Of a stretch of 64,000 nt of DNA, positions 44,656 through 50,807 are shown one piece after another. The notes beneath the pieces are model-generated. The model saw only the letters and a list, made by a program, of their open reading frames with translations, searched no databases and was not told the DNA's origin. The DNA is taken from assembly GCA_030145205.1 (NCBI GenBank), contig JAQYVZ010000023.1:1-64000 (forward strand), written 5' to 3'. Both the position numbers and the translations under genes were made by a program. Origin of the DNA: Desulfuromonadales bacterium. Its GTDB lineage: Bacteria; Desulfobacterota; Desulfuromonadia; Desulfuromonadales; BM103. How positions within the stretch are numbered: the stretch's first letter is position 1; each line of letters begins with the position of its first letter.

Positions 44656-45138
44656 TCAAAGACGCAGGGTTGATCTGTCCCGCGCACAGTAAACGATCAG
44701 CTGTCCTGTCGCAAGGTCAAACTCCACAGTCCGGCCGCGGTTGCCGCCGATATCTTCAGCGACCAGAGGGATGCCCTGTTCGATGAGAGCAGCCCGGGCG
44801 GAATGGGCACTGCGGGCACCAATCCCGTCAACCTGGCTGAGGAACTCCACCTCGAACATATTCGCTCCACCGGCCAGTTTGGCGACCAGCCGGGAGGCCT
44901 GCGCGCCATCATCCAGCAACGCCTGACGCATCAGACAGATGGCATCCACCACGTACTTCGCCGAGCCCACCAGAGGCCCTTCTTGGCGACGACCCGGCAA
45001 GAGAGTGTGCGCCAGCCCACCCAGGCCGAGTTCCCCATCGTACAGGCTGACCGCCAGACAGGATCCCAACCCGGCGGCCTTGAAAATCTCCGGGCGGCAA
45101 CCGACCCGGTATTCGGCAATTCCGACCCGCCAGGCCAT
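44656..45138 (-). CDS. cheD: Chemoreceptor glutamine deamidase CheD
   Basis: 160 residues. Catalytic Cys27 in GLGSCLAV and His44 in LAHTLLP are present. The Thr that normally precedes the Cys by six residues is Ala21. GARSAHSARAALIEQGIP follows. CheD deamidates receptor glutamines and, in other species, binds CheC and increases its phosphatase activity. ATG overlaps the cheA stop by one base. Confidence 0.88.
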   Translation of the reverse strand: MAWRVGIAEYRVGCRPEIFKAAGLGSCLAVSLYDGELGLGGLAHTLLPGRRQEGPLVGSAKYVVDAICLMRQALLDDGAQASRLVAKLAGGANMFEVEFLSQVDGIGARSAHSARAALIEQGIPLVAEDIGGNRGRTVEFDLATGQLIVYCARDRSTLRL

Positions 45139-45749
45139 CAGATCTGCGCCTCCTGCAAAAACGATTCAAAGGTTTCCGGGTCGGGAATCAGAAAGAAATG
45201 ACCGCGCACCTTGTGGCCCTGGCCCAGCTCGCCGCCGAATTCAGTTTCCACCATCAGCGCCAACTCGCCCTGGCGACCCAGGTCGATCAGCAGGGCATCA
45301 ACCAACGCCCCGGCCATATCGTAGGCAAACCCCGGAATCGAAGGGAGTAAGGTTTTACCGATCAGACTACCCAACGCATTGAGATAGGCCGAGGACAGAA
45401 TGTTCCCCACCTCCTTGAGCGTAGAGACTGTCTCTTGCGTCTCCAGAGACGTCACTTCCTCACCCAGCAGGGCGCTGCAGAGACGGCAGGCGCTCTCTTC
45501 CGGGAAGAGCAACATGATACTGCCGGGGGTCTCCCCTTCGATCCTCAGGACAATCCCGGCCATCAGTTTTTCGGCGCCCCCCAGGCGCTCCGGCACTTCG
45601 GCCAGGGGCAGAACCAACACCCGCGGGACATAGATCTCGATCCGCTTACCAACCAGCTGCGACAGGGCGGTCGCGGCATGGCCCATGCCGATGTTGCTCA
45701 CTTCCTTGAAAGCATCACGCTGAATCTCGCTCAACTGCTGGAAAGGCAT
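45138..45749 (-). CDS. Possible separate CheC from internal start in cheA
   Basis: ATG at 45749 (MPFQQLSEIQ) with AGGAG at 45754-45759 region five bases before it, in frame with cheA. The product would be a full 203-residue CheC. Alternative: only the fusion is made and this is a relic of the once separate gene. Confidence 0.45.
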   Translation of the reverse strand: MPFQQLSEIQRDAFKEVSNIGMGHAATALSQLVGKRIEIYVPRVLVLPLAEVPERLGGAEKLMAGIVLRIEGETPGSIMLLFPEESACRLCSALLGEEVTSLETQETVSTLKEVGNILSSAYLNALGSLIGKTLLPSIPGFAYDMAGALVDALLIDLGRQGELALMVETEFGGELGQGHKVRGHFFLIPDPETFESFLQEAQI

Positions 45750-47675
45750 CGTCTCTCCTGTTCCGGTCTGGACATCCGTCGACCAGGCGGCCAGCAGCGG
45801 CTGCGGGTCGACAACAAACAGTACAGAGCCATCCCCTTCGATCGTGGCGCCGCTCAGCCCAACCATCTGGTCAAACGGGAAACCGAGGTTCTTGACGAAG
45901 GCATCACGGTGACCGATAAACCCGTCCACCTGCAGACCAAGCGGTGCACCCTGCCACTCCGTCAGCACAATACAGGTCTCCGGTCCGACCGGGTCGGCCG
46001 ACTGGCCGAGCCGACCGAGCAGCCCAGCCAACGGGACCACGGGAACGCGCGCCCCATCGAGCGAAAAGAAAAGGACACCCTCTTGCGACTCGACCTGGTT
46101 CCGCGGAATCTCGATGATCCGCTGAACCCGTGTCACCGGTAAAGCCACCGGCAGGCCGGCGCAGCGCACCAGGACCAGCTTGATAATGGCAATCGACAAA
46201 GGCAGCTTGAGCCGGAAGCAGGTGCCCTGTCCCGGTGCGGAATCGATTTCCAGGTTGCCCCCCAAGTTTTCCACAGCCGCCTTGACCACGTCCATCCCCA
46301 CCCCACGACCCGAGGTTTCCGTTACCTCAGCGGCTGTCGAGAAACCGGGGCGACAGACCAGAAGCAGCGCCTCCCGTTCACTCAAAGCATCTGCCTGCGT
46401 CTGGGTCAGCAAACCTTTCTGCACCGCCTTTGCACGCAGGGTCGCCGGGTCCATGCCGACACCGTCATCACTCACCTCGACCAGCACCAGATCCCGTTCG
46501 CGACGCGCCTTGACGATCACCTCACCGCAGTCACGAATCCCGTGATCAACCGCATTCCGAACCAGGTGCACCAGGGGATCCGCCAGTTCGTCAAGGATGA
46601 CACGATCCAGGCCGACCTCGCCGCCGATCAGATGAAAGGTTACCCGCTTGCCGGTTTTCCGGCCGAGGTCACGCACAATCCGGGGGAGCCGACCGGCGAT
46701 GGTTTCCAGCGGCATCAGCCGCGTGCGCAGCACGTGGTGATGCAGATCCCTCACCAGACGTTCGGTACGCTCCAGAGCGGGATCCAGGGTTGTCCAGTCC
46801 CGTTCCCGGGCACAGGACTGCAACACATGCCGCTGGGTGATCAGTTCGCCGGCCAGATTGACAAAACGGTCCAGCAGATCAGTCCGAACCCGCACCGTGC
46901 GTGCGGCCTCGGCTCCCGGCGTCGACTTCGGGCTCCGCCGGTCCTCGACAAACACAACCTCTGCGGCATCCGGAAAGGCAAGCAGCAGTTCCCGGACATG
47001 GTCGCGCTGCAGGCTGGTGCGGAACCACGCGCTGATCTGCTCAAAGACCTGGCCGGTCAGCAAGGCGTCCTTGTCCGGCGTGGACGAAACGATTTCGCCG
47101 TGTTTCCCCAGTTCACGCAGCAGGAGCAGCCCGCGGGCCGCCGGCATGGCGACGTCCGGCGCCAGAGTGACACTGATCTGGAACACCTCCGTCTCTGGCA
47201 AGACTTCGATGTCCTCCTCTTCGACCGGGGTCAAAACCAGCTCTTCGTCTATTTCGATCAGGGCATCCAGGGGCAGGTCGGGAGGATCTTTCGGAGCAAC
47301 GGCCAAGACTGCCGGCTCAACCACATCCGCCAGGAAGGCGGAGATGTCTCGTTCGGGGAGGTCGGCTGCGATATCATCGACCAGCCCTTCCAGCAGGTCG
47401 ATGGCGTCCAGCAGACGATCAGCCACGGCGACGGGCAAGCCGCCGGATTTGCGACAATGGTCAAGAGTGTCTTCGAGCTGGTGGGCCAGTTGAGCAGTCT
47501 GCTCGAACCCCATGGTCGCGGCCATCCCCTTGATGGAATGGGCTTCACGAAACAGGGCATTGACAGCCTCCGTATCGCCAGGCTCCCGTTCGAGTGCGAC
47601 CACCAGTTGATTCATCTGGTCGAGATGTTCGCGGGCCTCTGAAAGGAACAGGGCTCTGTACTGCGACATATCCAT
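45138..47675 (-). CDS. cheA: Chemotaxis histidine kinase CheA fused to CheC
   Basis: 845 residues. P1 (1-110) with phospho-His46 in EAHSIKGMA; P2-like (about 165-245); P3 (about 270-330); P4 with VRNAVDHG, DDGVGMD and GRGVGMDVV; P5 CheW-like (about 500-630); and a CheC domain (643-845) with both phosphatase sites intact (Glu658/Asn661, Glu755/Asn758). The CheA part ends at the normal length, and a strong internal ribosome binding site (AGGAG five bases before ATG at 45749) would also make a free 203-residue CheC. The P2 boundary is inferred. Confidence 0.85.
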   Translation of the reverse strand: MDMSQYRALFLSEAREHLDQMNQLVVALEREPGDTEAVNALFREAHSIKGMAATMGFEQTAQLAHQLEDTLDHCRKSGGLPVAVADRLLDAIDLLEGLVDDIAADLPERDISAFLADVVEPAVLAVAPKDPPDLPLDALIEIDEELVLTPVEEEDIEVLPETEVFQISVTLAPDVAMPAARGLLLLRELGKHGEIVSSTPDKDALLTGQVFEQISAWFRTSLQRDHVRELLLAFPDAAEVVFVEDRRSPKSTPGAEAARTVRVRTDLLDRFVNLAGELITQRHVLQSCARERDWTTLDPALERTERLVRDLHHHVLRTRLMPLETIAGRLPRIVRDLGRKTGKRVTFHLIGGEVGLDRVILDELADPLVHLVRNAVDHGIRDCGEVIVKARRERDLVLVEVSDDGVGMDPATLRAKAVQKGLLTQTQADALSEREALLLVCRPGFSTAAEVTETSGRGVGMDVVKAAVENLGGNLEIDSAPGQGTCFRLKLPLSIAIIKLVLVRCAGLPVALPVTRVQRIIEIPRNQVESQEGVLFFSLDGARVPVVPLAGLLGRLGQSADPVGPETCIVLTEWQGAPLGLQVDGFIGHRDAFVKNLGFPFDQMVGLSGATIEGDGSVLFVVDPQPLLAAWSTDVQTGTGETMPFQQLSEIQRDAFKEVSNIGMGHAATALSQLVGKRIEIYVPRVLVLPLAEVPERLGGAEKLMAGIVLRIEGETPGSIMLLFPEESACRLCSALLGEEVTSLETQETVSTLKEVGNILSSAYLNALGSLIGKTLLPSIPGFAYDMAGALVDALLIDLGRQGELALMVETEFGGELGQGHKVRGHFFLIPDPETFESFLQEAQI

Positions 47676-47701: not shown

Positions 47702-48064
47702 TCAGCTCGTCACCCGACGAACGACCTCGAGAACCTTGTCTTCCTTGAACGGCTTGACGATGAAGTCGCGCGCGCCGGCTTCAACCGCTTCGAGGACCAG
47801 GGAGTCCTGGCCGAGAGCGCTGACCATCACCACGCAGGCCTGTGGGTCTGCCGCGATAATGTCGCGCAGCGCCTCGATCCCGCTGCGCTTCGGCATCACG
47901 ATATCCATGGTCACCAGCTCGGGCTGAATCTCCTGATAGCGTTCCAGCGCCTGCTTGCCATCTTCCGCTTCGGCAACAACCTCGTGACCTGCGCGGGTGA
48001 AGATATCCTTGAGCATGTTGCGCATGAACAACGCATCATCAACGATCATTACTCTCAAGGGCAT
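47702..48064 (-). CDS. cheY: Chemotaxis response regulator CheY
   Basis: 120 residues, receiver domain only. Asp9-Asp10, phosphoacceptor Asp54 (VTMDIVMP), Ser in VMVSALGQ and Lys in IVKPFKE are intact. Overlaps the cheW end by ten bases. Confidence 0.9.
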   Translation of the reverse strand: MPLRVMIVDDALFMRNMLKDIFTRAGHEVVAEAEDGKQALERYQEIQPELVTMDIVMPKRSGIEALRDIIAADPQACVVMVSALGQDSLVLEAVEAGARDFIVKPFKEDKVLEVVRRVTS

Positions 48065-48495
48065 AATGTTCCTCCATTGTCGTTAAACAACTGTTCCAGT
48101 TGCGTATATACGGTCGTCACATCGAGCAGGCGCACCGGCGGGCTGTCATCCCGTTCAATGAGCGCCTGACAGTAAGGATCAGAATCGGGGTCGGGGACGC
48201 TCCGCTCCAAGTCGAGAGGAACAATCCGTTCCACCCGGCTAACCAGCAGCGCCAACCCCCTGAATTCGGGGGCCAACACGACCAGGCGCGCATCCCGCGC
48301 GGCACCAGAAACGTCCATCAATGCCGGCAGGTCGATCACCGGCAGAACCTCACCGTGCGCGTTGATTGCGCCCTCGAGGAAGGGGGCCGGCTTCGGAACC
48401 GGGTAGCGTGGCGGACTCTCCATGATTTCCTGCACGGCATCAATATCCAGGCCGTAGGCCCGGTCACCGATCCGGAATATCAGCGTCAGAGTCAT
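48055..48495 (-). CDS. cheW: Chemotaxis coupling protein CheW
   Basis: 146 residues, one CheW domain. FRIGDRAYGLDIDAVQEIM and GAINAHGEVLPVIDLPAL are the family landmarks. It links receptor and CheA-CheC. It starts five bases after the receptor gene. Confidence 0.88.
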   Translation of the reverse strand: MTLTLIFRIGDRAYGLDIDAVQEIMESPPRYPVPKPAPFLEGAINAHGEVLPVIDLPALMDVSGAARDARLVVLAPEFRGLALLVSRVERIVPLDLERSVPDPDSDPYCQALIERDDSPPVRLLDVTTVYTQLEQLFNDNGGTLCP

Positions 48496-48500
48496 CGGCT

Positions 48501-49775
48501 TCAGTCCTGTGCTTCACGCTCCAGCTTGAACTTCTTGACCAACATCAGGAGTTCCTCGGCCATGGTCGCCATCTCCTTGGCGGAGAGTGTCATCTCCTCC
48601 ATTGAGGCACACTGTTGCTGCGTGGCGGCCGACACCTGTTCGGTCGCCGCGGCGTTATCGGACACCACCTTGTCGATCTCATCGATCGCCCGTGAAATCT
48701 GTTCCGCACCCTCAATCTGGTGCTGGGTCAGATCTGAAATGACCTGCGCCTTGCCGCGGGTGTCTTCGGCCGTGCCGGTAATCTCGGCAAAAACCTGGTT
48801 GGTCCGGTCCACCGCTGCATGCCCCGCCTCCATCTCCTGAATGATCTGCGCCATGCGGCTCTGAACCTGGGTCCCCTCTTCCTGAATGCCGTCCACCAGA
48901 CGGGTAATCTCCCCGGAGGAATCCGTGGTCGAATCGGCCAGTTTGCGGATCTCCTCGGCGACGATCGTGAAGCCGCGGCCGTACTCTCCCGCCCGGGCGG
49001 CCTCGATGGTGGCATTCAGGGCCAACAGGTTGGTTTTATGGGCAACGCCATTGATCACCTCGACAATCTGGCCGATCTGCTGAACCCGGGCGACAAAGGA
49101 GACCATCTGCTCACCGCTGCCCTCAACCTCCGTCAGGACCTGGCGGATGGTGTCGGTGCTGCCCTTGGCCAGGTCCGTGCCGCGCTGTGCTGTGGCGACT
49201 GTGGCTTCGGCCGCCTCGGCCACTTTTTGCGCAGACAGTGCAACCTGGTTGATCGCCACAGCCATCTCCCGGAAGGATTGGTTTGACGCCTCGACCATTT
49301 CGGCCTGGGTTTCGGCGCCCTTGCTGATCAGATCAACCGTTCCAGCCACTTCATGTGAGGACGCCGTCATCTCTTGAGCCGTCACCGACAGTGACATCGA
49401 AGCCTCGGTCACCTGAGAAGCAAACCCCCTGATTTCACCGACCAGCTCGCGCAGGCTGGCCTGCACGCGATTCATCGCCAGAGCGATATCATCGGTTTCA
49501 TCACAAAACAGGTTGCTGACCTGCACATCCTGGGACAGATCGCCTTGGCCCAAGCGGTCACCTGCTTCTGTCAGGGCACGGATGTTCTTGGCAAACGCCC
49601 TGGAGAAGAGCGCCCCAACCACCAATCCCACCAACAGAGCGCAGCCGATCGTCAAGGGCTGACGCAGCCAGGACGGGACCGGCCAGTAAGGAACGGTCAG
49701 GCTGACGACAACCACCGCAGCGATGACAATCAGGAACCCAACAATGAATTTGTAACTGATTTCGACACGCATCAT
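48501..49775 (-). CDS. Methyl-accepting chemotaxis protein
   Basis: 424 residues. Two membrane segments (about 8-29 and 40-60) with a short loop, so little periplasmic sensing surface; then HAMP (about 60-115) and a signalling domain with tip [19 protein letters not shown]. It is the receptor of this chemotaxis cluster. Confidence 0.88.
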
Positions 49776-49943: not shown

Positions 49944-50807
49944 TCATTCCTGGGTCGGAAGACGCCGATAAATGCGCTCCACCGGAAATTCGGAACGATA
50001 ACTTCCGCGGATCGCCCCGATCAAGGTTTCGGAACGACCCAACACCAGAGCCCCTTCTTCAGACAGGGCCTCGCTGAAACGCGTCAGAATCCGTTCCTGC
50101 TCCGCCCGGGAGAAGTAGATCAAGACATTGCGGCAAAGGATCAGATCTACAGCCGGGAAAGCCGTTGAAGACATGACATTGTGGCGTTCGAAACTCACCA
50201 TACTGCGGACCCGCTCGATCAGCTGGTAATCCTCGCCGACCGGCTTGAAATAGCATTGCAGAACCGATGGCGGCACTTCCGTAAGCCGCTCCCGGCTGTA
50301 GCACCCTGCCCGCGCTATCTCCAGAATGCTGGTGCTGACGTCTGTTCCGAGAATCTCGATCTGCAGCCCGGCCGGTTTTAATTCATCCATAAGCAGAGCC
50401 AGCGAGTAGGGTTCCTCGCCGCCGGCGCAACCGACACTCCAAAAGCGCAGGCTGGAGCGCCCGGCAGCCTTGGCGCGGCGGCAAAGATCAGGCAGGACGT
50501 CCTGCTCGAGCACTTGGAAGGTCCCCGGGTTACGGAAAAACCGTGACACATGGATCGACAGAGTAGCGAGTAGAGCATCCAGTTCATCATCATCATGGTG
50601 CAATTGGTCCAGGTAGGCGGACATATCGGCCACCCCGGCCGCACGCAGACGCTTGGCGATCCGGCGTCGCACACAGCGATCTTTGTAGTGATCGAGCCGG
50701 AAAGCGCGACGCTCGCGCAACAGGTCCATGATGGCCATGAAATCCTGTTCCTTGAGATCCTCGCCGGTCCAGCGGCCGAGCGTCATTTTTGCAGACAGGT
50801 CGCTCAT
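49944..50807 (-). CDS. cheR: Chemotaxis protein methyltransferase CheR
   Basis: 287 residues. N-terminal helical CheR domain (MAIMDLLRERRAFRLDHYK), SAM-binding WSVGCAGGEEPYSLA, then DLILCRNVLIYFSRAEQERI. It methylates receptor glutamates. Its ATG overlaps the thiL stop (ATGA). No cheB is seen in the window. Confidence 0.9.
   Translation of the reverse strand: MSDLSAKMTLGRWTGEDLKEQDFMAIMDLLRERRAFRLDHYKDRCVRRRIAKRLRAAGVADMSAYLDQLHHDDDELDALLATLSIHVSRFFRNPGTFQVLEQDVLPDLCRRAKAAGRSSLRFWSVGCAGGEEPYSLALLMDELKPAGLQIEILGTDVSTSILEIARAGCYSRERLTEVPPSVLQCYFKPVGEDYQLIERVRSMVSFERHNVMSSTAFPAVDLILCRNVLIYFSRAEQERILTRFSEALSEEGALVLGRSETLIGAIRGSYRSEFPVERIYRRLPTQE

Follow-up and report, generated by a model that had tools for sequence, protein, structure and literature searches.

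In a 64,000-nucleotide stretch of DNA from a Desulfuromonadales bacterium (assembly GCA_030145205.1, contig JAQYVZ010000023.1, positions 1 to 64,000; the window), we found that the chemotaxis genes cheA and cheC form one open reading frame (ORF) of 845 codons. The ORF occupies 45138-47675 on the reverse strand, where all features described here lie, and both the ORF reading and its translation are uninterrupted, with zero internal stops. The first 642 residues of the product constitute a CheA and the following 203 a CheC. Unless a base was misread, the gene, judged from its DNA, appears to be a lineage-specific, apparently recent fusion that arose by loss of the cheA stop codon. We consider it probable that this stop loss gave the lineage a CheA-CheC kinase-phosphatase together with free CheC.

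All Pfam matches to CheA and CheC domains of the fusion exceeded their cut-offs. The CheA part begins with a P1/Hpt domain (residues 5-95, 47391-47663; PF01627) carrying the phospho-acceptor His46 in the motif AHSIKG, followed by the P2 response-regulator-binding domain (residues 164-240, 46956-47186; PF07194), the P3 dimerisation domain (residues 259-317, 46725-46901; PF02895), the P4 HATPase kinase domain (residues 366-494, 46194-46580; PF02518) with NAVDHG at 374, DDGVGMDP at 403 and SGRGVGMD at 455, and the CheW-like P5 domain (residues 500-629, 45789-46178; PF01584). In the AlphaFold2 (AF2) model the predicted local distance difference test (pLDDT) score of P5 was about 73-94 per block with a single dip to 63. 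Pfam and the motif check thus find P1, P3, P4, P5, the phospho-acceptor His and the ATP-binding motifs of a CheA histidine kinase, and the presence of both domain types within one uninterrupted frame places the gene among CheC/CheX-CheA fusions. A Pfam search of the genome detected four CheA-type P3 domains, that of the fusion included.

The CheC part (residues 643-845, 203 aa; 45141-45749) matched PF04509/PF13690, with a CheC match at residues 651-687 and a CheX-type match at 709-781, both above cut-off. The NCBIfam model CheC_Thtogales spanned residues 647-842 at 127.8 bits, below its curated cut-off of 250. Thermotoga maritima CheC (1xkr) was matched by sequence with an E value of 6e-22, and by the fold of the CheC model with an E value of 2.1e-19 and a template modelling score of 0.90 over the target. 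Using D/S-x3-E-x2-N-x22-P, which we take to be the consensus of the CheC phosphatase motif, a motif scan located motif 1 (D-x3-E-x2-N-x22-P) at residues 654-684 (45624-45716) and motif 2 (S-x3-E-x2-N-x22-P) at residues 751-781 (45333-45425). Among 41 aligned CheCs, the window's included, motif 1 was found in 37 and motif 2 in all, and the E and N of the motifs were invariant or nearly so. With a CheC fold and paired E-x2-N motifs, this part is predicted from its sequence to hydrolyse CheY~P, and the Pfam search of the genome returned no other CheC or CheX-type match. Comparison with a genome of the same genus (G001) gave a nonsynonymous divergence (dN) of 0.23 and a synonymous divergence (dS) of 1.55 for CheC (NG86), indicating that CheC is constrained, although much of the time so measured may predate the fusion. 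A sequence-only reading of this DNA had described a full CheA continuing in frame into a full CheC with both phosphatase sites, and frame, coordinates, strand, Pfam matches and motifs all agree with it.

P5 and the CheC fold are joined by a linker of approximately residues 630-646 (45738-45788), low in confidence at about 636-647. In a model of P5 plus CheC the pLDDT of the linker fell below 50 at model residues 147-158, and it was likewise low in a second model. When P5 and CheC were aligned jointly, P5 was misplaced onto CheC; a smaller set and a CheC-only set were used instead. The first model had only two aligned rows for the CheC half, which was poorly modelled (mean pLDDT 69), and the second had no aligned CheA rows for its first 47 residues, comprising the CheA tail and the linker, while its CheC part reached block means mostly above 90. 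The models suggest that P5 and CheC are separately folded domains on either side of a low-confidence linker.

To place the fusion among its relatives, 136 genomes of the order were searched; cheC homologues were found at E ≤ 1e-30 in 49, own genome included, and the cheA/cheC junction was read in 46 of the other 48 (G043 and G070, with open frames of 206 and 98 aa, were left out). The gene order thiL-cheR-mcp-cheW-cheY-cheA-cheC-cheD-lolA-rimO, all on one strand, was kept by the genes found in the 40 larger loci of the order; some of these lack edge genes, in most cases where the locus or contig ends, and cheD was unmatched in three. This shared order and strand indicate that the cheA-cheC pair is orthologous across the loci. 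Relative to the cheC start, the cheA stop of the 46 junctions lay between -110 and +14: at +4 in 18 (an ATGA or GTGA overlap), at +14 in 6, at -14 in 7, and elsewhere from -110 to +11 in the others. By anchored starts cheA overlapped cheC in 27 of the 46, or in 26 if locus L148 is counted from its ATG; there the cheC start used as anchor is three bases upstream of the ATG, and the Shine-Dalgarno (SD) value carries this offset. At locus L120 (G015:C75:97500-106600) the cheA stop was sought beyond an in-frame stop that lies about 30 codons from the start of cheA, the rest of which is alignable; this is either an error or a pseudogene.

In three of the 46 genomes (G003, G045 and G023) cheA and cheC share a frame and are separated by the stop alone, so that stop readthrough could yield a low level of fusion protein. 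At these loci (L121, L128 and L137, respectively) there is a single stop in the one frame, a TGA followed by C in G003 and a TAG directly before the ATG in G023. A junction alignment of the window and five relatives, in which gap placement in the tail is uncertain, put codon 638 of the fusion, GGA (45762-45764), opposite the TGA stop of cheA in G001, G014 and G003. The spacer from this codon or stop to the cheC ATG measures 12 nt here, 14 nt in G001 and G014 and 15 nt in G003; the first and the last of these lengths keep the frame. Shifted frames in the window stop at +19 and +35, whereas the cheC frame has no stop until the end of cheC. Since the stop was lost while the tail was in frame with cheC, the pair appears to have become one gene. 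This stop has also disappeared in G012 and G009, with a milder outcome: the codon at which their kin have TGA is TGT (Cys) and TGG (Trp), respectively, and CheA continues to the +14 stop inside cheC. A fusion results when the stop is lost in frame 0, and a slightly longer CheA when it is lost in another frame.

Wider searches covered 277 genomes of the class (102 at E ≤ 1e-15) and a sample of 395 genomes of the phylum (39 at E ≤ 1e-10), own genome included in both counts. Both sets were judged by reported open-frame lengths except for the genomes that were read; G049 (442 aa), G148 (451 aa) and several shorter frames were judged by length only, and fusions split by contig ends or carrying a very divergent CheC would escape these searches. 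An open frame of 889 aa in G563 was rejected as a second fusion, as its cheA ends with TAA and cheC lies 95 nt further on in another frame, the long frame being an off-frame reading. The cheC of that genome (L152, G563:C3:79500-88500) carries a Pro/Gly/Leu-rich insert after the first phosphatase motif that resembles a translated repeat element. The 553-aa frame of G071 (L129) and frames of 384-489 aa in G026, G032, G033, G040 and G046 were likewise discarded, their cheA stops being at +4. When the whole fusion was used as query against the genome contigs, 79 of the best 80 matches were loci that matched only part of CheA, mostly generic kinase-domain segments, and in the remaining one (L032, a Bacillota metagenome-assembled genome) cheA and cheC are separate genes.

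The sequence-only reading had further pointed to an AGGAG that precedes, by five bases, the in-frame ATG 45749, from which a CheC of 203 residues could be made. This element is present (45755-45759), and the ATG stands at the position of the relatives' cheC starts. Among 322 in-frame internal ATGs in the 57 gene-like ORFs of the window, ATG 45749 alone has an AGGAG at a distance of 4-9 nt on its 5' side, and its pairing energy with the anti-SD sequence, -7.4 kcal/mol, is also the median of the cheC starts of the 46 relatives. Because the cheC of relatives begins there, behind a comparable ribosome-binding site, we read the internal start as the old start of cheC, retained here, and no new feature. 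A ribosome-binding site and an in-frame start codon are what a dual-product gene calls for in its sequence, and given their persistence ribosomes probably also start at ATG 45749, releasing free CheC.

Immediately downstream of the fusion is cheD (44656-45138; PF03975; match to 2f9z_C with an E value of 2.4e-25), whose ATG overlaps the fusion stop by 1 nt (TGATG), starting on its last base; that CheD is encoded next to the fusion had been noted before and holds. Upstream of the fusion Pfam identified cheY, encoding a single-domain response regulator (47702-48064), cheW (48055-48495), mcp (48501-49775) and cheR (49944-50807). The methyl-accepting chemotaxis protein (MCP) encoded by mcp has two transmembrane segments and a short periplasmic loop by our reading, and its hairpin arms, 148 aa on one side of the tip and 166 aa on the other, about 22 heptads each, are consistent with class 44H, the HAMP end being taken from a Pfam match just under cut-off. 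A CheZ-like match elsewhere in the genome (G000:C92:13977-14351, reverse strand; 21.3 bits against a cut-off of 30.7, within a 519-aa frame) is perhaps a coiled-coil resemblance. The gene content, i.e. an MCP with two transmembrane segments and a small loop, CheA, CheW, CheY, CheC, CheD and CheR, fits what the accessible part of a published account gives for the Dif-like che clusters of Geobacter, where the loop is described as tiny and periplasmic (Tran et al. 2008, PMC2577667). Given this match, the pathway may, by analogy, regulate extracellular matrix rather than swimming, which makes the chemotaxis reading uncertain.

Comparison with known systems indicates that a kinase-phosphatase fusion is not a new idea. 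In Leptospirae, CheC/CheX is fused to F1 CheA, and in the passages available to us the authors suggest a dual kinase/phosphatase function (Berry et al. 2023, PMC10782961). As here, a CheC-type phosphatase domain and CheA share one chain. Leptospirae belong to a different bacterial class, and with respect to domain order, CheC versus CheX and an internal start, their fusions are likened to the present one by the published description, as far as it was accessible, and not by sequences. Unlike the fusions in that description, the one reported here was found in one genome and can be traced to stop loss between two genes that are separate in the relatives. We found no report of a CheA-CheC/CheX fusion outside Leptospirae in the accessible portions of the openly licensed literature. 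The description of the Geobacter Dif-like clusters, as far as its accessible text goes, mentions no CheA-CheC fusion (PMC2577667), and the relatives that we read keep the genes separate. The Dif system of Myxococcus xanthus, which controls exopolysaccharide, has the same kinds of proteins as separate chains, namely the kinase DifE, the CheY DifD and the CheC DifG; according to the available passages DifG dephosphorylates DifD~P, and exopolysaccharide is lowered by the phosphate sink that DifD and DifG together form on DifE (PMC4671073, PMC12802240). Geobacter-type clusters are described as having CheR at the place of M. xanthus difB (PMC2577667). In Escherichia coli, CheA-short, an internal-start product of cheA, is described as bringing CheZ to the receptor array, and in a model array-bound CheZ was set about 2.5-fold more active to fit the data (PMC7696710, as accessible). 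As in our case, a second product arises from an internal start and a phosphatase is placed at the array; however, the E. coli short form is a truncated CheA that binds CheZ, whereas the internal product here would be the phosphatase itself.

Kinase and phosphatase activities are combined in one CheA-type protein in CheA3 of Rhodobacter sphaeroides, whose phosphatase region is not known to include a CheC domain. In the mechanism that we propose, a complete CheC would be attached to the C-terminal P5 domain by a flexible linker some 12-18 residues long. Placed in the receptor-CheW-CheA complex, tethered CheC would dephosphorylate CheY~P beside the kinase that made it, and it could keep CheD near the receptors. 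If the Dif model of Myxococcus applies by analogy, CheY and CheC would draw phosphate off the kinase as a sink; the drain would then sit at the kinase itself, and tethering would strengthen or localise the sink. More tentatively, and with considerable doubt, one gene could set the ratio of tethered to free CheC in a Dif-type phosphate sink, bringing phosphate addition, phosphate drain and, by way of CheD bound to CheC, receptor feedback onto one array in a recent evolutionary step, the same-genus genome being unfused and three relatives in the order being one stop away.

Several observations weigh against a kinase-phosphatase made alongside free CheC. None of the 46 other genomes of the order whose junction was read carries the fusion, and lack of conservation in relatives is half of what the sequence-only reading had set beforehand as speaking against itself; since the fusion is not conserved, there is no sign of selection favouring it. 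The evidence is DNA from a single draft assembly of 317 contigs, the only assembly of the species within reach of the searches, and, given the in-frame spacing, one miscalled base in codon 638 would suffice to create the fusion. At the internal start, 12 of the 322 internal ATGs, ATG 45749 among them, pair with the anti-SD sequence at -7.4 kcal/mol or more strongly, so that the pairing energy, taken by itself, speaks only modestly for the start. In its predicted fold the junction RNA also pairs the SD to bases immediately 3' of the ATG, though with a z of -0.72 this structure does not exceed shuffles in stability. The link to Dif is drawn from gene content and published comparison, not from a tree, and with two flagellin matches detected by Pfam in the genome a role in swimming is possible.

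These points give room to three other explanations. The fold over the SD, together with ribosomes translating cheA and traversing the internal site, could block the internal start and leave all CheC tethered; against this, the AGGAG is well spaced and found at one of the 322 ATGs, and CheA-short of E. coli, in the account available to us, arises from an internal start in cheA (PMC7696710), and we regard an exclusively tethered CheC as distinctly unlikely. It is more plausible, yet still unlikely in our judgement, that the stop loss was neutral: the fusion would be made with a useless tether, tolerated since nothing constrains the CheA tail, and the work would fall to free CheC made from its own start. 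The tail after P5 indeed differs among relatives in length, in sequence and in where it stops, the cheC start is intact, and the fusion is found in one genome only. Relative-rate counts against G001 gave some excess change in CheA-P5 and CheC, but lolA shows an excess as well, so that the excess is not specific to the fusion. Neutrality is harder to reconcile with the loss of the cheA stop itself, by which fewer ribosomes would end and restart at cheC and free CheC may fall, and with the fusion's CheC being the only CheC/CheX match of the genome.

That CheA and CheC are in reality separate as in the relatives, a base error having turned TGA into GGA, is in our estimate very improbable, even though no relative is fused, the assembly is a draft and the minimal change is one base. 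The tail contains no homopolymer longer than TTT, which makes an indel error unlikely, and nine of the ten genes of the locus could be aligned to a relative over almost their whole length; the exception, rimO, aligned over 3-373 of 466 in its best match, probably as the fetched loci end there. Moreover, the stop codon and the spacer length both differ from those of G001 in the same genus, although the spacer may reflect ordinary divergence.

On the reading that we favour, a kinase-phosphatase made alongside free CheC, the locus would represent a protein fusion caught early, which can be compared across one syntenic operon in its stages: genes unfused, genes one stop codon away from fusion, a stop lost with another-frame stop ending CheA shortly after, and one fused lineage. 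It adds an independent lineage to the single report of a CheA-CheC/CheX fusion found in the literature accessible to us. It would also offer a natural kinase-phosphatase with a tether that can be cut or kept, in which one may ask whether signalling changes when a sink phosphatase sits on its own kinase.

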